DNA of 64,000 bases from positions 62,001 through 126,000 of the forward strand of contig NZ_JACYXL010000004.1 in assembly GCF_014842995.1 (NCBI RefSeq), written 5' to 3'. Position 1 is the stretch's first letter; each line of letters starts with the position of its first letter. The position numbers and the translations under genes were made by a program. Under the pieces are notes generated by a model, which was not told where the DNA came from, searched no databases, and saw only the letters and a list, made by a program, of their open reading frames with translations. Origin of the DNA: Rhodanobacter sp. 7MK24 (GTDB taxonomy: Bacteria; Pseudomonadota; Gammaproteobacteria; Xanthomonadales; Rhodanobacteraceae). This document shows positions 52,492 to 64,000 of the stretch, piece after piece.

Positions 52492-53910
52492 ATGTTGTGG
52501 GCCTGCATACTGTTGCCGCAGCTGGCGCTGGACGCTGTCCTTCGCCGTCTGCCTGATCCTTCCGCGCCGCTGGCGCTGATCGGTGGGCCGGCACAGCTGC
52601 GTACGCTGCACGCGGTCAATCCGGCCGCGGCCGCGGCCGGCCTGCGCGCGGGCATGCGTCTGACTGCGGCCCACGCCTTGCTGCCTGATGTCGCGATGGT
52701 CGATCACGATCCGCAGGCCGAGGCGTGCTGGCAACGATTCCTCGCCGCCTGGGCCTATCGCCACAGTTCGCAGGTCAGTGCGCAGTGGCCGGGCTGCATC
52801 GTGCTGGAGGTGCGTGCGAGCTTCGGCCTGCTCGGACCCTGGCCGCGGATCGAGGCGCGATTGCGCGAGGAACTCGACGCGCTGGGTTTCACGCATCGCA
52901 TCGCCATGGCGCCAACGCCACGTGCTGCGCGCGTGCTGGCCGGGCTCCGCGATGGATTGGCGGTTGTCGATCCCGCCGCCCTGCATGACTTGCTGGATCG
53001 CGTGCCGGCGCGTCGTGCGCTCTTGCCCGATGACGCGGGCGAGCGGCTTCATCGGATGGGCCTGCGCGAGCTGCGCGCCGTGCGGGCGCTGCCCGCCGAC
53101 AGTGTGCGCCGCCGATTCGGCCTGCTCCTGCTCCAGCACCTCGATCGGTTGTACGGCAATGCGGATGATCCGCTGGCTTACTACGCGCCACCCGACCGCT
53201 TCGACAGCCGGATCGAGCTGGAGTGTGAGGTGGAGAGCCACACCGCGCTGCTGTTCCCGCTGCGCCGGATGATCGGCGACCTGTGCACCTGCCTGTCGAT
53301 CCGGGACGGTGGCGTGCAGCGCTTCGTACTGCGGTTGGAGCACGAGGGAACGCACACCGACGTGGAGGTCGGCCTGCTGGCCGCCGAACGCGAGCCGGCG
53401 ATGCTGTTCGAGCTGACCCGCGGTCGGCTGGAGCGGGTGCAGCTCGGCCGCCCCGTGGTGGCGATGCGGCTACTGGTGCGGGAACTGCCGCCGTTCGTGC
53501 CGGCGACACGGGATCTCTTTGAGGTGCGCATGCACCAGGCACTGCCGTGGTCGCAACTGCGCGAGCGCCTGCGTGCCCGCCTTGGCGACACGGCCGTGCA
53601 CCGTGTGGCACCGACCAGCGACCCGCGCCCGGAGCGCGCCTGGCGACGCGTGGAAGGAGCGGCGGCATGCATCGGCCAGGCGCCGGTCCGCCCGTCGCGG
53701 CCGCTATGGCTGCTACCCAAGCCCATTCCGCTGCGCGATGCGCGCCTGCGCATCGTTGCGGGCCCGGAACGCCTGGAAAGCGGCTGGTGGGACGGCGACG
53801 AGGCGCGCCGCGACTACTACATCCTGGAGACTTCGCAGGGGCAGCGGGCCTGGGCGTTCGCACCGCCGGGCGAGCAGGGCGGCTGGATGCTGCACGGGTG
53901 GTTTGCGTGA
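52492..53910 (+). CDS. imuB: ImuB, catalytically degenerate Y-family polymerase-like protein
   Basis: A 472-residue member of the Y-family fold ([20 protein letters not shown] at the N-terminus). The catalytic acidic residues of active Y polymerases are not seen: the first motif lacks its Asp, and the second reads [13 protein letters not shown] instead of an SxDE pattern. This fits the known role of ImuB as a non-catalytic hub that binds the beta clamp and links ImuA to DnaE2. The C-terminus has [13 protein letters not shown], a conserved ImuB feature. ATG 52492 lies nine bases after imuA; the stop overlaps the dnaE2 start. Confidence 0.94.
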
Positions 53911-56900
53911 GCGGGGACGAGCTGGTGAACGGTGTGGCACCCGATACGCCGGGTGGCCGCCCACCGCGCGCGTGGACGGTGGCGCAGCGGCTGCATCGGA
54001 CGGCGGCCAACGACGATGTGCAGGCGGACAGCTTCCCGGCCTACGCGGAATTGCACTGCCTGTCGGATTTCTCGTTCCTGCGTGGCGCGGCCAACGCGGA
54101 AGAACTGTTTTCGCGCGCCACGCAATGCGGCTACGAGGCGCTGGCGATCACCGACGAGTGTTCGCTGGCCGGCATCGTGCGTGGGCTGGAGGCCGCACGC
54201 GCCACCGGACTCACGTTGATCGTCGGCAGCGAATTCACGCTGGCTTGCGGGCTCCGCTTCGTGCTGCTGGTCGAGACGCTGGCCGGCTACACCCGACTGT
54301 GCGAGCTGATCACCCTCGCGCGGCGTGCGGCGCGCAAGGGCGAGTACCAGCTGACGCGCGAGAACGTGGCGAGTGTCCTGGCGGCAAATCCGAAGGACGG
54401 GGCCGGCTGCGGGTTATTCGCGCTATGGCTGCCGGCGGCGGAACCTGACGAGGCGCAGGGACGCTGGCTGCAGGAACAGCTGGGCGAGCGAGCGCACCTT
54501 GCCGTGGAGCTGCACCGCGAACAGGACGATGCCGCGCGTCTGCGCCAGTTGCTGGGCCTGGCATCGCGGCTGGCCATGACGCCGGTGGCTGCCGGCGACG
54601 TGCACATGGACGTGCGACGCCGACGCGTACTGCAGGACACGATGACCGCGATTCGCCACAACATGCCGCTGGCGGACTGCGGCGAGCATCTGTTCCGCAA
54701 CGGCGAGCACCATCTGCGCACGCGGCGTGCGCTGGGCAACATCTATCCACACGCCTTGCTCGATGCGGCCGTGAAGCTGGCGCGACGCTGCACCTTCCGC
54801 ATGGACGAGGTGCGCTATGCCTATCCAGCCGAGCTGGTGCCTGCCGGCCACACGCCGACGAGCTGGCTGCGCGCCCTGACCGAAGCGGGCCTGCGCGCGC
54901 GCTGGCCGGAAGGCGCGCCGCCCGCGGTCGCGGCACAGATCGAGGACGAACTGGCGCTGATCGCGGAACTCAAGTACGAGGCGTTCTTCCTCACCGTCGA
55001 GGACATCGTTCGCTTCGCCCGCTCGCGCGCCATCCTGTGCCAGGGCCGCGGCTCCTCCGCCAATTCGGCGGTGTGCTATGCGTTGGGCATCACGGTGGTC
55101 AACCCCGCCGAGAGCCGATTGCTGATGGCGCGCTTCCTGTCGCGCGCGCGCAACGAGCCACCCGACATCGACGTAGATTTCGAGCACGAACGGCGCGAGG
55201 AAGTGTTGCAGTACGTCTATGCGAAGTACGGCCGTGCGCGTGCGGCGCTGGCTGCAACCGTGATTCGCTACCGCGGCAAGAGCGCGGTGCGTGACGTTGC
55301 CAGGGCCTTCGGGTTGCCGCCGGACCAGTTGGGACTGCTCGCCGAATGCTATGGCTGGGGCAACGGTGAGACACCGATGGAGCAGCGCCTGCGCGATGCC
55401 GGCTTCGATCCGGACAATCCGCTGATTGCGCGCGTGCTGGCGGTGACGGCCCAACTGCGCGGTCATCCGCGGCACCTGTCGCAGCACGTGGGCGGCTTCA
55501 TCATCAGCGATGCGCCGCTGTCGACCGTGGTGCCGGTGGAGAACGCGGCAATGGCCGAGCGCACCATCATCCAGTGGGACAAGGACGACCTGGAGACGAT
55601 GCGCCTGCTCAAGGTCGACTGCCTGGCGCTCGGCATGCTGACCTGCATCCGCAAGGCGGTCGAGCTGGTCGAGCGGCATCGCGGCTACCGCATCGATCTT
55701 GCCCGGCTGCCGCCTGGCGATCCGGCGACTTACGCGCTGATCCAGGCCGCCGACACCATCGGCGTGTTCCAGATCGAATCGCGCGCGCAGATGAGCATGC
55801 TGCCGCGTCTGAAGCCGAAGACCTTCTACGACCTGGTGGTCGAGGTCGCCATCGTGCGGCCCGGCCCGATCCAGGGCGGCATGGTGCACCCCTACTTGCG
55901 ACGCCGGCAAGGCAAGGAGCCGGTGGTATACCCCTCCACGGAGATCGAGGACATCCTCAAGCCCACCCTGGGCGTGCCGCTGTTCCAGGAACAGGTGATG
56001 GAACTGGTGATCCACGCCGGCTACTCGGCGGAAGAGGCCGATGGTTTGCGTCGTTCGATGGCGGCCTGGGGGCACGGTGGCGACATGGAGCCCCATCGCG
56101 TGCGTATCCGCCAACTGATGGAGGGCAAGGGCTATTCGTCCGCCTTCATCGATCAGATCTTCGAGCAGATCAAGGGCTTCGGTTCCTATGGTTTCCCGCA
56201 GTCGCACGCGGCCTCGTTTGCCAAGCTGGTCTACATCAGCTGCTGGCTGAAGCGGCACGAGCCGGCCGCGTTCGCGTGTGCACTGCTCAACGCGCAACCG
56301 ATGGGTTTCTACTCGCCCAGCCAGATCGTGCAGGACGCGCGCCGCAGCGCAGGGGCGCGACCTCCCTTGGAGATCCGTCCGGTCGACGTGACCCGCAGCG
56401 CCTGGGACAACACGCTGGAAGGCGGCCACGCGCGACAAGGCATGGACGACGATGGGCAGCCCGCGTTGCGGCTGGGCATGCGGCAGGTGGCAGGACTGTC
56501 GGAGACGATGGCGCAGGCGATTGTCGCGGCGCGTGCGCAAGGAGCATTCCGCGATGTGCGAGATCTGTGCCAGCGCGCCGGACTGGACGAGAAGGCACGC
56601 CGGGTACTGGCGGAGGCGGGTGCGCTGCAGACGCTGGCCGGGCACCGTCACGCAGCACGCTGGGCGGTGGCCGGCATCGAGCAGCGTCGCCCGCTGTTGC
56701 CAGGCAGCCCTGACGAGGACGAAGTGACCTTGTCCGCACCGACAACGGGCGAGGATGTGCTGTCGGACTACCGCATCACCGGTCTGACTCTGCAGGCGCA
56801 TCCGCTTTCGCTGTTGCGCCATCGGCTTCGCCAGCAGCGCGTGCTCGATTCCAATCAGCTACGTGGCTTGCCACACGGCCGCATCGTCCGGGTGGCAGGT

Positions 56901-57161
56901 ATCGTTACCCAGCGGCAGCGCCCGGGCACCGCCAAAGGCACGGTCTTCGTCACGCTGGAAGACGAGCACGGCATGGTCAATATCGTGGTCTGGCCGGACG
57001 TGGCACTGCGCCGGCGCAAGACCCTGGTGGGCGCGCGCCTGATGCTCGTGCGCGGGCGCTGGGAGCAGGTGGACGGAGTACGGCATCTCATCGCCTGGGA
57101 CCTGCACGACCTGAGTCAGCTGCTCGGCGAACTGCGCACCACTTCGCGTGATTTCCACTGA
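53907..57161 (+). CDS. dnaE2: Error-prone DNA polymerase III alpha-like subunit DnaE2 (ImuC)
   Basis: About 1084 residues from GTG 53907, which overlaps the imuB TGA; the frame is open back to 53547 but that part overlaps imuB and has no family sequence. The PHP domain opens [20 protein letters not shown] and ITDECSLAG. The C-family polymerase palm carries [20 protein letters not shown] with catalytic Asp residues. A C-terminal OB fold ([20 protein letters not shown]) binds DNA. It performs mutagenic bypass synthesis after damage. It is the fourth gene of the cassette, and alkB follows two bases later. Confidence 0.96.
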
Positions 57162-58915: not shown

Positions 58916-59212
58916 GGCTGCATGTCCTGATGGTTGGATAAGGCGGCAGAAAGCGAATGCCCGGCCCCTATGAGATCGGAGGGGTGGCATCCAGACGCCG
59001 AGTCGTCGGATGCCATTCATTACCGGTCCCATCAAGCATGGATCGGAAAAGCTAAGCACCTTCCGACGCATGGAGAGAGTGGGCCCGCCAGCCTACTTCA
59101 AACAGGTCGCAGCGCAGGCCCCCGCCTGAGCGCGGATCGTACCCACCCTGTCGGAAGGCACGGTGTCCCATGCAAATCATGTTGCCTCTGAATGTAATTC
59201 AATATACCCGCG

Positions 59213-59728
59213 TCATATCAAATTATCGACAAATATTTCATTACGTGAAATGCATTCTCCATTATTAACCGCGTCAACTCTTATTCTATAAAATTTAATA
59301 TATCCGTTTATTAATTTCACAAATTCTTCAAAATTGTACATACGACTAGAGAAGACCACTCTCCCGCCGCTTAAGATGTGAATCTTTGATTTTTTTATTG
59401 GGTGTACATGAAAAAATCTGCTCACCTTTCCACCGGGCGCCACAATGGTTAAATCCTTAAATGATTTAATGTTTTCCCAGTCAAGCGACTGGAGCGTCTT
59501 ACCCTTAAATGCCCTGGAAATGCCAGTATCATCGATAACAAGATCTGATTCCATAATAAACGCTGAATACCAGGCAATGGCCAAAAGGGGAAATAGACCT
59601 AAGACGGCAAGGGCGCCCTGACCAAAACCAGCACTCACCGTCACCGCTACCGTCACGCATGTGTATATAAAAAAAATCACAATAGCCCCGAGAGATAGGG
59701 ATGGAAAATTCAAAAATTTAAACACCAT
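59213..59728 (-). CDS. Unrecognised two-helix membrane protein in AT-rich DNA
   Basis: A 171-residue protein with AAGGA nine bases before the ATG. Two membrane helices lie at about residues 12-33 and 38-57, then a soluble domain with ITGISRAFKG-like strands (LVIDDTGISRAFKGKTLQSL, IHILSGGRVVFSSRMY), resembling a PH-like domain of small membrane proteins. The gene is strikingly AT-rich: the 60 bases at 59281-59340 contain only 10 G or C. It was probably acquired from another organism. The layout is reminiscent of an immunity protein next to a toxin, but no toxin domain is recognised. Confidence 0.7.
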   Translation of the reverse strand: MVFKFLNFPSLSLGAIVIFFIYTCVTVAVTVSAGFGQGALAVLGLFPLLAIAWYSAFIMESDLVIDDTGISRAFKGKTLQSLDWENIKSFKDLTIVAPGGKVSRFFHVHPIKKSKIHILSGGRVVFSSRMYNFEEFVKLINGYIKFYRIRVDAVNNGECISRNEIFVDNLI

Positions 59729-59769
59729 ATCTTCGATCCTTGTAGTGAATAGAAAGCAATCAACTATTT

Positions 59770-60051
59770 TTACGTAAAATATTGCTGATAGGTTATACCA
59801 ACTCTTGAAGATTGTCCATTCGTTAATGATGCGCCTTGATGGCTAAATGTAGCGTTAGCCGAATTTAGATCTAACGCAATCCCGAGGAGATTATTTGACA
59901 CGGCCGTGGCGCTTAATATCGCATCCGTCACTCGGTCTGCAGTTTCGTCATGCGTTAATTGTCCCAGCAGCCAAGCCAGAACCAAAGCCAACAAAAAGAC
60001 CTTTCCAGCCTCCGGCCGCATAACGGCTGGCTTCGCCACTCGTAGCGCCAA
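59770..60051 (-). CDS. Small hypothetical protein with signal-like helix
   Basis: A 93-residue product from TTG 60051, with GAGGG six bases upstream; ATG at 60021 is an alternative. A hydrophobic segment (VFLLALVLAWLLGQL) near residue 18 could be a signal peptide or anchor; the remainder is polar (NNLLGIALDLNSANATFSHQ). No family is recognised. The TTG lies just after the TGA at 60061-60063 that ends the preceding frame, so the two are in one continuous frame broken by a stop, meaning either translational coupling or a decayed single gene. Confidence 0.5.
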   Translation of the reverse strand: MALRVAKPAVMRPEAGKVFLLALVLAWLLGQLTHDETADRVTDAILSATAVSNNLLGIALDLNSANATFSHQGASLTNGQSSRVGITYQQYFT

Positions 60052-60060
60052 CTCTCGCCC

Positions 60061-60261
60061 TCAAGAAAGTAGCCTTCCGCTCAATTCTGGAACCCAACCT
60101 GTGGCAACTGAGATATTCAAAAATTCTTGTGCTGTTATCACTTGAAAAATCTGGCCTCCACTCTGGTTGTTGAAACTCGTGTAGCCTTGGCCATCGACAC
60201 TGTTCGTGCCTGATCGTTGGACCTTGTCGGGGGGATGCCGCGGGGTTGCCAGCTTCAACAT
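60061..60261 (-). CDS. 66-residue hypothetical or 3' remnant of a larger gene
   Basis: From ATG 60261 the frame gives 66 residues ending WVPELSGRLLS. The middle (GQGYTSFNNQSGGQIFQVIT) is Gly/Asn/Gln-rich and not like its neighbours. The frame is open further upstream but only as the reverse of the fosX-like gene. It may be a truncated end of a secreted or polymorphic-toxin-like gene, or a short gene. I do not recognise it. Confidence 0.35.
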   Translation of the reverse strand: MLKLATPRHPPDKVQRSGTNSVDGQGYTSFNNQSGGQIFQVITAQEFLNISVATGWVPELSGRLLS

Positions 60262-60273
60262 GGGTAAAGATGC

Positions 60274-60693
60274 ATGCATGCCATCAGCCACATCACCTTC
60301 ATGGCGCACGACCTGGATCGCATGAAGGCGGTCCTGTGCGAGGTGCTCGGGGCACGCGAAATCTACGACAGCATCGAACGCAATTTTTCTCTTTCGCGCG
60401 AGAAGTTCTTCCTGTTGAATGGCTTGTGGATTGCCGTGATGGAAGGCGATTCGCGCGAGCGCAGGTCTTATGAGCATGTTGCCTTCCGCGTTAACCGCGA
60501 GGATCTTGCAGCCTGTATTCCGAAGATCGAGGCAATGGGCCTGGACATCCTTCCTCCGCGACCCAGGAAGGATGGGGAAGGGGAGTCGCTTTATTTCTAC
60601 GACTTCGACAACCATCTTTTTGAACTGCATACGGGGACGCTGGAAGAGCGCCTCGCCTGCTATGGGAAGCTGTCGCCGGCCGAAGAATGTTGA
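60274..60693 (+). CDS. fosX: FosX-type fosfomycin epoxide hydrolase
   Basis: A 139-residue vicinal-oxygen-chelate protein. It matches FosX closely: HITFMAHDL at the start, SLSREKFFLLNGLWIAVMEG, SYEHVAFRV, and YFYDFDNHLFELHTGTLEER. Metal ligands are His6, the His of YEHVAF and the Glu of FELHTG. Glu43 in REKFF occupies the place of the catalytic Glu that activates water in FosX, so hydrolysis rather than glutathione transfer is expected. It would destroy fosfomycin. A FosA-type enzyme is less likely from the REKFF and FYDFDNH features. It borders the AT-rich island. Confidence 0.9.
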   Translation: MHAISHITFMAHDLDRMKAVLCEVLGAREIYDSIERNFSLSREKFFLLNGLWIAVMEGDSRERRSYEHVAFRVNREDLAACIPKIEAMGLDILPPRPRKDGEGESLYFYDFDNHLFELHTGTLEERLACYGKLSPAEEC

Positions 60694-60974
60694 GGAAGAC
60701 CGGGCGATATCCGGGACGCCATCGCGGTCTGCGCATCGGAGGTCGGCCAGGGCGGGATGCCGAAGCTTACCGCCTCGCTTTCGTACCGCCGTGCATGGGT
60801 CATCGGCCCGCGAAAGCGCCATTCGCCGGTGAGCGTCAAATGCGTTCAAGACACCGACGGTTCCGGCAGGCAACTTACGGCGCAATGAACATATCCTTCC
60901 TTGCCAACGATGCCATGCCGCTTGCTCCGAGCCCCTCCCGGTTGCGCTGCGACTTCCGAGTACGGGGAACACCT

Positions 60975-63500
60975 GTGGTGCGCAGTTCATGGTGGCGCAC
61001 CGGATTCCGGCGCATGGGTCTGCTCCTGGCGCTGCTTTTTACCGGAGTGCTCCATGCCGCGCCGGACGCGGACAGTCCTGCGGCCATGCGTTGGGCACCG
61101 AGCCGGAGCTACCACGTCGAGAACTACAAGCTGCGGCTCCACTTCGACCAGGCCAGACGGGAAGTATTCGGTGACGAGATTGTCACCATCCGGCCCTTTG
61201 CTGCCGGGTTCGACCGGTTTTGCATCAACAGCGAAGACATGACGATCGAGTCCGTGGCGCTCGTTCGCACCGACGGTGCTGTCGAGGCACTGCCGCACGA
61301 AACGGACAACAGCTGTCTCTGGATCAGCTTGCAGCGCGCTTACGGTCCGTCGGACTCACTGGGTATCCGCATCGTCTATCACGGCGTTCCCAGCGCCGGA
61401 CTTTACTTCGTCAATCCTGGCAAGGACGACCCGGGTGTGCCGCCGCAGATCTACACGCAGGGGGAGCCCGAGTTCAACCACCACTGGTTTCCGTGCTGGG
61501 ACTATCCCAACGACATGGCCACCAGCGAAACGATCACCACCGTACCCGAAGGGCAAGTCGTCGTTTCCAATGGCACCCTGGAGAGCGTGAAGCATGCAGG
61601 CGGCCAGGTGACGTACGACTGGGTGGAGCATGTTCCGCATAGCGCATATCTGCTGTCCCTGGCGATCGGTCCATGGAAGCAATTGCATGACAGCTACGAC
61701 GGCAAGCCGGTGGATTACTTCGTCGATCGGCGCGTCGACGACGCGACGGCGTTACGCACCTTCCATCTCACGCCCGACATGATCGGATTCTTCTCGCGCG
61801 CCACGGGCATTGGATATCCCTACGAGAAATACGATCAGGTGACCGTGCACGACTTCATTTTCGGCGGTCAGGAAAATGTCAGCGCCACGACCCTGGTCGA
61901 CGAGGCGCTGCACGATGCGAGAGCCGAAGCAGACTATCCCAGCACCATCCTTGTCGCGCACGAGCTCGGTCAGCACTGGTTCGGTGATTACGTGCAAGGC
62001 CGGGACTGGGCCAATATCTGGCTCAACGAGGGTTTCGCCACGTACCTGACCGCGCTGTATACGCAGTACCACGAGAGCAACGACGCATACCGCTACGAAA
62101 TCTACGGCGACCAGAAAGCCGCCCTTCATGCCGATGCGACGGAGAACAACCGTCCGATCGTCTATCGCAAATATGTCGATCCGATGGACATGCTCGAGCA
62201 GATCACCCACGAGAAAGGCGCTTCCGTGCTGGACATGATGCGCTACGTGCTGGACGGCGAGAGCGCCATGACGATCCCGGCGTCGCAGAACGAAATCATG
62301 TTCCACGCGCTCAACGATTACCTTGCCGCGCATCATGCCCAGACTGCCGATACGGCTGATCTCATCAGCAGTATCCGGTCCAGCAGCGGGCAGGACCTCT
62401 CTTGGTTCTTCTACGAGTGGGTGTTCAAGGGTGGCCACCCTGCCTATCGCGTCTCGGCGAGCTACGACCCGGCACGTCGGATGGAAATCGTGAAAGTGGC
62501 GCAGACACGGGAGGTGAATGCGAACACGCCGATCTTCGATATGCCGATCCATCTCGCCTTCTTCGGCGACAACAACCGGCAGGTCGACAGGCAGGTGCGA
62601 GATGATGCCGCGAACCAGGAGTTCGACATTCCGTTGGTCTTCAAGCCCAAGTGGGTCGATTTCGATCCTGACGACGTACTCTTCAAGACGGTCGCATTTC
62701 CCAAGCCGGACGAAGAGCTCGGCGTACAGGCGTTGCACGATCCGCACATGATGAGTCGCCTGTGGGCGGTCAAGCAGTTGGGCGAGCATGCCGCGGCAGA
62801 CAAGGACTGTTGCGTGCAGGCCATCGACAGCGTGTTGAACAACGACGCGTTCTACGGGGTCCGCATCGAAGCAGCATCCAGCCTGGGGCAGAGCCATGCC
62901 GAACAGGCAAAGCGGGCGTTGTTATCCGCACTGGGACAAGACAATAGCCAGGTGCGCACCGCGGTGGTCGGCGCGATGGGCCATTTCCTCGGCGACCCGG
63001 GCGTGCGGCAGGCGTTGCTGAAGGCGATGCGGGACGACCCAAGCTATGCGGTGCAGGCCGCGGCGGCCGAGCAGATCGGCCGCTCCGGCAGTCCCAGGGC
63101 GTTTGATGCACTGCGGGCAGTGTTGGCTTCCACCCGGGATATCAACGTGACGATCGGTGCATTGAACGGGCTGGCTGCGATGAAGACGCCGCAGGCCACG
63201 CACGTCGTCTTCACCTATGCGAAGCCTGGACCTCCGAAACGCGTCCGCCTAGTCGCTCTGACGCACCTGCAGACGTTGAAGGACTCATTGCCTCCCGACG
63301 ACAGGCAAGCGGTGACTCAGCTCGTCGGTGATGCCATCGAGGACTCCTTCCTGGAGATACACGAAATCGGCGTACAGCTGGTCGGCACCTTCGGGCTCAG
63401 GCAGTTCAGGCCGGAAGTTGAGCGCGATGCCAGGAGGGCCGTGATCATGGACGACCGCGTGGACGCGCAGCACGTGCTTGAGGGCCTGGACAAGAAGTGA
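60975..63500 (+). CDS. M1-family aminopeptidase-like protein with altered active site and HEAT-type tail
   Basis: About 841 residues from GTG 60975 (GGGGA upstream), giving a signal peptide (RTGFRRMGLLLALLFTGVLHA); longer starts at 60687-60885 are also in frame. The M1 fold is clear, but key positions deviate: GGQEN replaces GxMEN; the zinc motif is His329-Glu-Leu-Gly-Gln333-His334 instead of HExxH, with Glu352 in NEGFATY kept; and the usual Tyr of YEKG is His412. Residues from about 570 on form HEAT-like repeats (ALHDPHMMSRLWAVKQLGEH, VLASTRDINVTIGALNGLAA). It is periplasmic or secreted. Whether it is an active peptidase is uncertain. Confidence 0.85.
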   Translation: MVRSSWWRTGFRRMGLLLALLFTGVLHAAPDADSPAAMRWAPSRSYHVENYKLRLHFDQARREVFGDEIVTIRPFAAGFDRFCINSEDMTIESVALVRTDGAVEALPHETDNSCLWISLQRAYGPSDSLGIRIVYHGVPSAGLYFVNPGKDDPGVPPQIYTQGEPEFNHHWFPCWDYPNDMATSETITTVPEGQVVVSNGTLESVKHAGGQVTYDWVEHVPHSAYLLSLAIGPWKQLHDSYDGKPVDYFVDRRVDDATALRTFHLTPDMIGFFSRATGIGYPYEKYDQVTVHDFIFGGQENVSATTLVDEALHDARAEADYPSTILVAHELGQHWFGDYVQGRDWANIWLNEGFATYLTALYTQYHESNDAYRYEIYGDQKAALHADATENNRPIVYRKYVDPMDMLEQITHEKGASVLDMMRYVLDGESAMTIPASQNEIMFHALNDYLAAHHAQTADTADLISSIRSSSGQDLSWFFYEWVFKGGHPAYRVSASYDPARRMEIVKVAQTREVNANTPIFDMPIHLAFFGDNNRQVDRQVRDDAANQEFDIPLVFKPKWVDFDPDDVLFKTVAFPKPDEELGVQALHDPHMMSRLWAVKQLGEHAAADKDCCVQAIDSVLNNDAFYGVRIEAASSLGQSHAEQAKRALLSALGQDNSQVRTAVVGAMGHFLGDPGVRQALLKAMRDDPSYAVQAAAAEQIGRSGSPRAFDALRAVLASTRDINVTIGALNGLAAMKTPQATHVVFTYAKPGPPKRVRLVALTHLQTLKDSLPPDDRQAVTQLVGDAIEDSFLEIHEIGVQLVGTFGLRQFRPEVERDARRAVIMDDRVDAQHVLEGLDKK

Positions 63501-63588: not shown

Positions 63589-64000
63589 GTGACCAAGCTT
63601 TCGCTGATGTCCATGCCGCTGCTGATGGCAGCATGCCTGGCCTGTTACGCACAGGATTCGGGCACGATGACCCGGGAAGAGTTGGTGCGCCTGACACAGG
63701 AGCGCATGCATGCCGTCGATGCCGGAAACCCCAAGCCGTTCGACGAGCAGTTCGCCGACGATGCGCTGGTCTTCGATGAGCGCGGGCGCAGCATGGACAA
63801 GGCGCGCTTGTTGAAGGAGATCACGCCGCTGTCGAAAGGGGATGTCGGAACACTCGATCTGGTGAACCCGGTCAGCCGCACGGTCGGGGACACCATCGTG
63901 CTCGGCTACGACCTCAACGAGACGGAAACCATCTTCGGCCAGCTCAACACGGCGCGCTATCACGGGACGGATACGTGGATAAGGCGCAACGGGAAATGGC
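63589..64000 (+). CDS. SnoaL/DUF4440-like secreted protein, cut by the window end
   Basis: From GTG 63589 (AAGGGAG upstream) the frame stays open to the window end (137 codons seen). A signal-like start (LSLMSMPLLMAACLACYA) could be a lipobox around MAAC. The body has the layout of NTF2-like DUF4440 proteins: a helix (MTREELVRLTQERMHAVDAG), a FADDALVFDERGRSM strand pair and HGTDTWIRRNGKW at the visible end. Such domains bind small ligands or act in peptide processing. It lies 88 bases after the M1 gene and may be co-transcribed. Confidence 0.75.
   Translation, partial: MTKLSLMSMPLLMAACLACYAQDSGTMTREELVRLTQERMHAVDAGNPKPFDEQFADDALVFDERGRSMDKARLLKEITPLSKGDVGTLDLVNPVSRTVGDTIVLGYDLNETETIFGQLNTARYHGTDTWIRRNGKW

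Follow-up and report, generated by a model that had tools for sequence, protein, structure and literature searches.

A small conserved group of M1-homologous HEAT-repeat proteins with a displaced second histidine and a possibly rebuilt metal site

The 64,000-nucleotide stretch of Rhodanobacter sp. 7MK24 DNA analysed here (the window) encodes a protein of the M1 aminopeptidase fold in which the second metal-ligand position holds glutamine, with histidine one place later (HELGQH), and in which the catalytic tyrosine is replaced by histidine (HEKG). Four proteins from other genomes carry the same two motifs, and the five together (the QH group) appear to be a small, conserved side branch of presumably secreted, aminopeptidase-like proteins that end in HEAT repeats (M1-HEAT proteins). 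The explanation that we tentatively favor, while rating its chances somewhat below even, is that these proteins bind metal through an HExxxH-type site in which His364 serves as the second ligand and His442 assumes the role of the tyrosine, and that they are probably catalytic. If all three ligand arrangements considered below are taken together, it is fairly likely that the site still binds metal and does chemistry. As far as open-access searches can say, the HELGQH variant of the M1 fold is undescribed, and no account of it was found in the open-access literature on M1 proteins with altered motifs.

The gene lies within an uninterrupted open reading frame on the forward strand (60687-63500). 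Residues are numbered here from the ATG at 60885, which adds 30 to the numbers used in an earlier note on this sequence. The GTG at 60975 is the likelier start, because a signal-peptide-like stretch begins there, and the mature protein would be secreted. The matches to M1_N, M1 and HEAT_2 each exceed their own Pfam cut-off. The features of the gene are as follows:

60975..63500, + strand: gene for the M1-homologous protein (open reading frame listing, translation, and Pfam M1_N, M1 and HEAT_2)
60975..61061, + strand: probable signal peptide, WRTGFRRMGLLLALLFTGVLHAA (read from the translation; low-confidence model helix 39-56)
61119..61652, + strand: Peptidase_M1_N, residues 79-256 (Pfam PF17900, E 1.2e-17, 65.1 bits, cut-off 25.8)
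61761..62420, + strand: Peptidase_M1 catalytic domain, residues 293-512 (Pfam PF01433, E 1.4e-36, 126.6 bits, cut-off 27.7)
61863..61877, + strand: GGQEN in place of GxMEN, residues 327-331, with Glu330 retained
61959..61976, + strand: HELGQH, H359-H364, with Gln at the second-ligand place, His one later, and Gly preceding both
61995..61997, + strand: Gln371 (Thr in 67 of 69 other M1 rows)
62028..62030, + strand: Glu382, the third metal-ligand position, retained, as is the preceding Asn381
62208..62219, + strand: HEKG, residues 442-445, with H442 in place of the catalytic Tyr of YEKG
62709..63482, + strand: HEAT-repeat C-terminal part, residues about 609-866 (best Pfam HEAT_2 stretch 710-793; model helices)

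The unusual letters first reported for this protein (GGQEN, HELGQH and HEKG) are borne out by the codons, with no insertion or deletion. Codons 359-364 read CAC GAG CTC GGT CAG CAC (H359 E360 L361 G362 Q363 H364), and the Gln-His order differs from CAC CAG by two base changes, without an indel or frameshift. The motif spacing is HELGQH-x17-E, with E382 lying 23 residues past H359, and the normal spacing claimed for the first histidine and both glutamates (Glu330 and Glu352 in the earlier numbering, Glu360 and Glu382 here) likewise holds, these residues being kept in all five members. Three altered positions had been proposed, and two of them, HELGQH and HEKG, are fixed throughout the group. 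The third varies: Glu330 is retained in every member, the Met of GxMEN is replaced by Gln in four (GGQEN), L010 has Asp for Asn (GGMED), and the canonical sister protein from Granulicella has GGTEN. All five members depart from the M1 motif HExxH-x18-E in having Gln for the second His, with E382 retained, and from the catalytic tyrosine motif (YxKG) in having HEKG, yet all five lie above both the M1_N and the M1 Pfam cut-offs. Because two defining M1 features are absent, we call these proteins M1-homologous and not M1 peptidases.

The four further HELGQH and HEKG proteins are 48-56% identical to the window protein (L078, 56%; L079, 55%; L091, 54%; and L010, from a Pseudomonadota MAG, 48%), and M1_N, M1 and HEAT domains are recognized by Pfam in all five. 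An alignment of M1 homologues had been suggested as a check on conservation of the Gln-His pair, and it finds Q363 and H364 identical in every group member. The close homologues with the normal order that might have pointed to a strain-specific change were not found; the four nearest proteins found share the Gln-His order, and the nearest normal-order relative found, encoded on Granulicella tundricola plasmid pACIX901, is 47% identical and reads GGTEN, HELAHQ and YQKG.

Comparison with 69 other M1 rows reveals five letters that are fixed in all five members and absent from every other row: A362G, H363Q, T371Q, Y442H and G457D. The earlier list of changes was right about the Gln-His and Tyr-to-His replacements but overlooked A362G, T371Q and G457D. 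The 69 rows comprise one best-hit open reading frame per locus (E <= 1e-8 over 250 or more aligned residues), with L072, L073, L074, L080 and L082 added by hand; 29 are M1-HEAT rows, all but L029 and L035 confirmed by Pfam. Outside the set stand L007, L008 and the ninth M1 place of the host genome (no hit or locus), L081, L084 and L085 (HExxH and Tyr present), and the decayed L075 and L076. H363 and Y442 are invariant across the 69 rows, and E330, H359, E360, N381 and E382 are retained in all five members of the QH group. His364 occurs in three of the 69 rows, always beside the normal His. Four canonical M1 relatives (L080, L081, L082 and L028) read HELAHH and so have a His in the shifted position as well as in the usual one, and this arrangement is a plausible intermediate state.

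Four of the five fixed changes fall within active-site motifs. When columns conserved at >=60, 80 and 90% are considered, the hypergeometric P values for this clustering are 0.0014, 0.0059 and 0.050 against the M1-HEAT rows and 0.0099, 0.038 and 0.20 against all rows. A sixth change, E394Q, enters the count at 60% against the M1-HEAT rows; at 90% the count drops to four changes, three of them in motifs. The fixed changes cluster in the active site, a pattern that we treat as weak support because the active-site columns were chosen after the changes had been seen.

In a tree built without the trait columns, the four QH rows form one branch (SH-aLRT 94) that is nested in a 100% branch with the Granulicella protein. 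This tree holds 55 of 73 rows, most of L048-L069 having been omitted as near-duplicates of one actinobacterial group, and L091, which was found later, is in neither the tree nor the conservation regression described below. The dN/dS ratio is about 0.26 for L079/L091 (dN 0.065, dS 0.253) and about 0.19 for L078/L079 (dN 0.172, dS 0.900), the wider pairs being little informative at dS values of at least 1.4. In each of the ten pairwise comparisons among the five members, residues 293-400 are more conserved than the other parts compared (69-97% identity, versus 37-84% in the HEAT part). For the six pairs of the four QH rows, once identity elsewhere in the protein is allowed for, this stretch falls +0.1 to +2.4 s.d. 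from the regression on 300 canonical pairs. Decay in this family is exemplified by L075 (genome G241) and L076 (genome G248), two M1-HEAT proteins by Pfam from the window's order with open reading frames of 861 and 953 amino acids, in which the first His, the base Glu, the second His, the third-ligand Glu, the Glu of GxMEN and the Tyr are all gone. The QH group presents a different picture, and its catalytic domain appears undecayed. At the level of sequence, then, the existence of one clade with fixed substitutions, low dN/dS and retention of the other ligands and the base lends backing to the original proposal of a subfamily with a rearranged zinc site.

An AlphaFold2 model of the window protein has a confident M1 fold (pLDDT 87.9) and matches IRAP, factor F3, PepN, LTA4H and ERAP1 at Z about 41. 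The active-site helix spans residues 354-362 in this model and the equivalent residues, 305-313, in the canonical control L012, and a widening of the helix sought by comparing the two was not seen, its extent being the same. A helix break at Gly362 was rejected as evidence of widening, since the control helix ended at the equivalent residue. Confidence is lower around the GGQEN loop (block means of 67 and 74, versus 79 and 82 for the corresponding control region). The model may merely follow the canonical rows, because these make up 25 of the 27 rows in the model alignments, from which the fragments L029 and L035 were omitted.

We also asked what helix geometry permits, using a crude ideal-backbone calculation. 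On a straight alpha helix, two His residues at i,i+5 cannot share a zinc ion (best mismatch 3.8 Å), whereas a pair at i,i+4 can (0.15 Å), as can Gln at i+4 with His at i (0.2 Å). Sharing at i,i+5 also fails on an ideal pi helix (mismatch 2.0 Å). Among 486 clash-filtered local distortions of the helix end, 10 are compatible with i,i+5 sharing and 66 with i,i+4 sharing, counts that compare distortions and prove neither site, because the clash-filtered ideal alpha helix itself gives 0.78 Å for i,i+4, just over the counting limit of 0.6 Å. The best i,i+5 distortions have O(i)-N(i+5) distances of 3.2-3.9 Å. From these results we judge a shifted second-ligand site to be possible but demanding.

If the QH proteins do carry an HExxxH-type site, then His359, the shifted His364 and Glu382 would hold a divalent metal, and the last turn of the active-site helix would be widened at Gly362-Gln363, as it is in the HExxxH site of the M49 enzyme dipeptidyl peptidase III (DPP III). 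Glu360 would remain the general base, Glu330 of GGQEN would anchor the amino end of the substrate, and His442 would replace the tyrosine in stabilizing the transition state, such that the protein would remain a peptide-trimming enzyme of the periplasm or the extracellular space. The metal, the ligand role of His364, the widening of the helix, the function of His442 and catalysis itself are all predictions of this scheme. Histidine can do the work of tyrosine, as in thermolysin or DPP III, and the asparagine at position 381 presumably supports the second His.

Several observations fit such a site. Q363, H364 and H442 are fixed in all five members while H363 and Y442 are kept in all 69 other rows, and A362G, a change of the kind that would allow the helix to widen, is fixed alongside them, with Gly found at this position in none of the 69. 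Gly362 and His364, both fixed, and the retained Asn381 suit a shifted second ligand, and E330, H359, E360, N381 and E382 all persist. The four QH rows form a single well-supported branch (SH-aLRT 94) with a canonical sister and low dN/dS, and residues 293-400 are conserved at least as well as in canonical pairs, whereas the decayed L075 and L076 lose all ligands. The i,i+5 zinc sharing is reachable after some local widenings (10 of 486). There is also a precedent for a working HExxxH zinc site in DPP III, whose HELLGH motif binds zinc via both histidines on a helix described as having five residues per turn, and which is also active when the motif is shortened to HExxH (PMC3268031). A zinc site that is not significantly different is reported for an M49 enzyme that naturally carries the short motif (PMC5805324).

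Other observations weigh against the HExxxH-type site. The modeled helix has the same extent as that of the canonical control, and a straight helix puts Gln363 at the metal; the pi helix fails for i,i+5, and i,i+4 sharing is reached by more of the distortions (66 of 486). The active-site enrichment loses significance at the strictest threshold when all rows serve as the reference (P 0.20), and only five members of the group were found. In simulation, lengthening the motif of an M49 enzyme disturbed zinc coordination (PMC5805324), a result that counts against the shifted ligand. So does the loss of function in rat aminopeptidase B, where changing the second His to A, Y or F leaves 0% activity (PMC2241622), Gln not being among the replacements listed there. 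We hold only tentatively, at roughly a third of our belief, the scenario in which a working HExxxH site arose inside M1 through a His-Gln to Gln-His exchange, together with a Gly that loosens the helix and a replacement of Tyr by His. Such a site would have converged on that of M49 from another starting point and without an insertion, and the enzymes would be active as peptidases but changed in metal tolerance or specificity.

The same substitutions could instead mark the loss of peptidase chemistry, with the fold and the substrate-anchoring residues kept in a non-catalytic protein that would bind peptide ends or a partner protein in the manner of other M1 pseudoenzymes. Both the second-ligand position and the catalytic tyrosine are altered in every member, L075 and L076 of the window's order lack the whole motif, aminopeptidase B had 0% activity after its ligand was changed (PMC2241622), and M1 pseudoenzymes exist, Tma108 being listed as one (PMC11266112). 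Yet the first His, the base Glu, the third-ligand Glu and Glu330 are fixed in all five members and are all lost in L075 and L076, the stretch from 293 to 400 is the most conserved part in all ten member pairs, and a His is retained adjoining the lost one. A purely binding function is unlikely in our estimation, although it deserves serious weight. A sequencing error or strain-specific mutation, which the occurrence of the gene in only one of 233 family genomes at the threshold used might have favored, is refuted by the four relatives in other genomes, where the same motif is surrounded by synonymous differences (codon 362 is GGT, GGC or GGG), and has practically no probability left.

Two further possibilities keep the metal but assign its missing ligand to another residue. 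Gln363 might coordinate it on a normal M1 helix (HExxQ), creating a weaker or different site in which His364 would lie in the second shell and His442 would compensate in catalysis. Gln363 is fixed in all five members, the extent of the AlphaFold2 helix is like that of the canonical control, and the crude geometry lets Gln at i+4 and His at i share zinc on a straight helix with a mismatch of 0.2 Å. However, this arrangement leaves the fixed His364 and Gly362 unexplained, HExxQ was not found in the open-access literature searched, and Gln is a rare and weak ligand of catalytic zinc; we regard it as improbable. His442 might otherwise furnish the ligand from the place of the tyrosine, forming a new His-Glu-His site with chemistry other than peptide hydrolysis, and H363Q and Y442H are indeed fixed together in five of five members and found in none of the 69 other rows. 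The histidine side chain is shorter than that of tyrosine, and therefore, judging from general side-chain lengths, its nitrogen should sit further from the metal than the tyrosine oxygen on the same backbone. We consider this last arrangement very unlikely.

Known M1 aminopeptidases (PepN, IRAP, ERAP1, LTA4H and tricorn factor F3) share with the window protein the M1_N and M1 domains, the first His, the base Glu, the third-ligand Glu and the Glu of GxxEN. The window protein differs from them in having HELGQH and not HExxH, His and not the catalytic Tyr, Gln371, and a C-terminal end recognized by Pfam as HEAT. It also scores below the NCBIfam equivalog cut-offs for PepN and LTA4H (TIGR02412, 158.2 against 591.2; TIGR02414, 77.3 against 718.2; TIGR02411, 77.6 against 761.7). 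M1-HEAT proteins from Planctomycetota, Neomarinimicrobiota, Ignavibacteriota, Nitrososphaerota, Calditrichota and other groups are 27-34% identical to the window protein, and the three-domain layout is found by Pfam in all 27 M1-HEAT alignment rows (the window protein and L010 included) and in the Granulicella and Hymenobacter proteins. Unlike the QH group, these relatives have HExxH and Tyr in 29 of the 29 rows compared.

M49 DPP III (HELLGH) resembles the window protein in its first His, in the Glu, and in placing the second His one residue beyond the HExxH position. HELGQH has the HExxxH spacing but lacks the Gly directly before the second His (M49 HEXXGH), and no M49 model is among the Pfam matches of the window protein at E <= 0.001. 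In contrast to DPP III, the third ligand of the window protein lies in an M1-type NEGFAT segment and not in EECRAE, and letters have been exchanged with no residue inserted. The M1 pseudoenzymes, yeast Tma108 and TAF2, are alike in combining the M1 fold with altered catalytic positions, and a profile of the four QH rows and the Granulicella row matches TAF2. Of the 27 rows in the bacterial and archaeal M1-HEAT alignment, eight match the Pfam model for the Ig-like domain of TAF2 and one the model for its C-terminal repeats, which hints at a possible origin of this eukaryotic transcription factor within the M1-HEAT family. Tma108 shows the opposite pattern to the QH group in that it is listed as keeping HExxHx18E (PMC11266112).

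The window gene is present in one of the 233 genomes of its family (E <= 1e-60). Near it, positions 59100-60270 have 45% G+C versus 65% in the window and hold an open reading frame of 171 amino acids (59213-59728, - strand) with no Pfam match at 1e-5; this composition suggests an inserted segment. Taking the rarity of the gene and the low-G+C stretch together, we think that the gene was probably acquired. The host genome has nine M1 places. Seven besides the window gene are readable, six of them with HExxH (L001, L002, L003, L004, L006 and L008), while at L007 the motif pattern picked up no HExxH; the ninth place gave no locus. In 1898 genome searches with protein or alignment queries (repeats included), the group appeared in only five genomes, at thresholds of 1e-60 and 1e-100 (one search at 0.001) that would miss distant members. 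Of the 60 loci from a single genome-contig scan, one (L010) belongs to the QH group. Viral contigs yielded no group member with an alignment profile, and the motif pattern picked out 10 stretches in them, all translated, none of which is an M1 gene by eye. A plasmid search returned 10 records, the Granulicella one close (47%) but canonical and the others at most 33% identical, and phage records gave seven distant matches of at most 28%.

A comparison of gene neighborhoods among the group genomes revealed no clear shared gene order. Genes of the DUF4440 family lie near three members:

63589..64000, + strand: DUF4440 gene of the window, running past the window end (Pfam PF14534, E 6.5e-12)
L088 6971-7795 and L087 12872-13372: DUF4440 genes near other group members

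In three of the five group genomes, a DUF4440 gene lies no more than 3 kb from the M1 gene (1/7, 1/6 and 1/7 of each genome's matches) and is possibly linked to it. The window and G501 copies are 28.7% identical and the G518 copy is of another type, and we do not build on the association because only the first two are alike. In G233 and G1445 there is no DUF4440 gene on the available contig piece; upstream of the M1 gene, these contigs continue for no more than about 1.2 kb. In G501 the neighbors of the M1 gene, out to 6 kb, include S9, M19 and S15 peptidase genes, a setting that suits a peptide-degrading role and proves nothing. A gene with a TIR domain and TPR repeats (L087 10851-12725) adjoins the group member L078 on the opposite strand. 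Directly upstream of the window gene is a small open reading frame of the glyoxalase superfamily (60274-60693, PF00903) that by eye looks like a Fos-type fosfomycin-modifying protein, and further away two adjoining open reading frames (52492-57161) resemble, also by eye, a putative ImuB-DnaE2 mutagenesis cassette.

Few signatures in enzymology are as well conserved as HExxH, and proteins are judged active or dead by it. A clade whose second ligand has shifted while its other catalytic residues stay fixed makes a stepwise rebuilding of a zinc-peptidase site (HQ to HH to QH) testable, and it bears on how safe motif-based calls of pseudoenzymes are. If the QH proteins are inactive, the clade would be a clean case of a pseudoenzyme that retains most catalytic residues. 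The window protein may thus represent nature's own reworking of a very widespread enzyme site.
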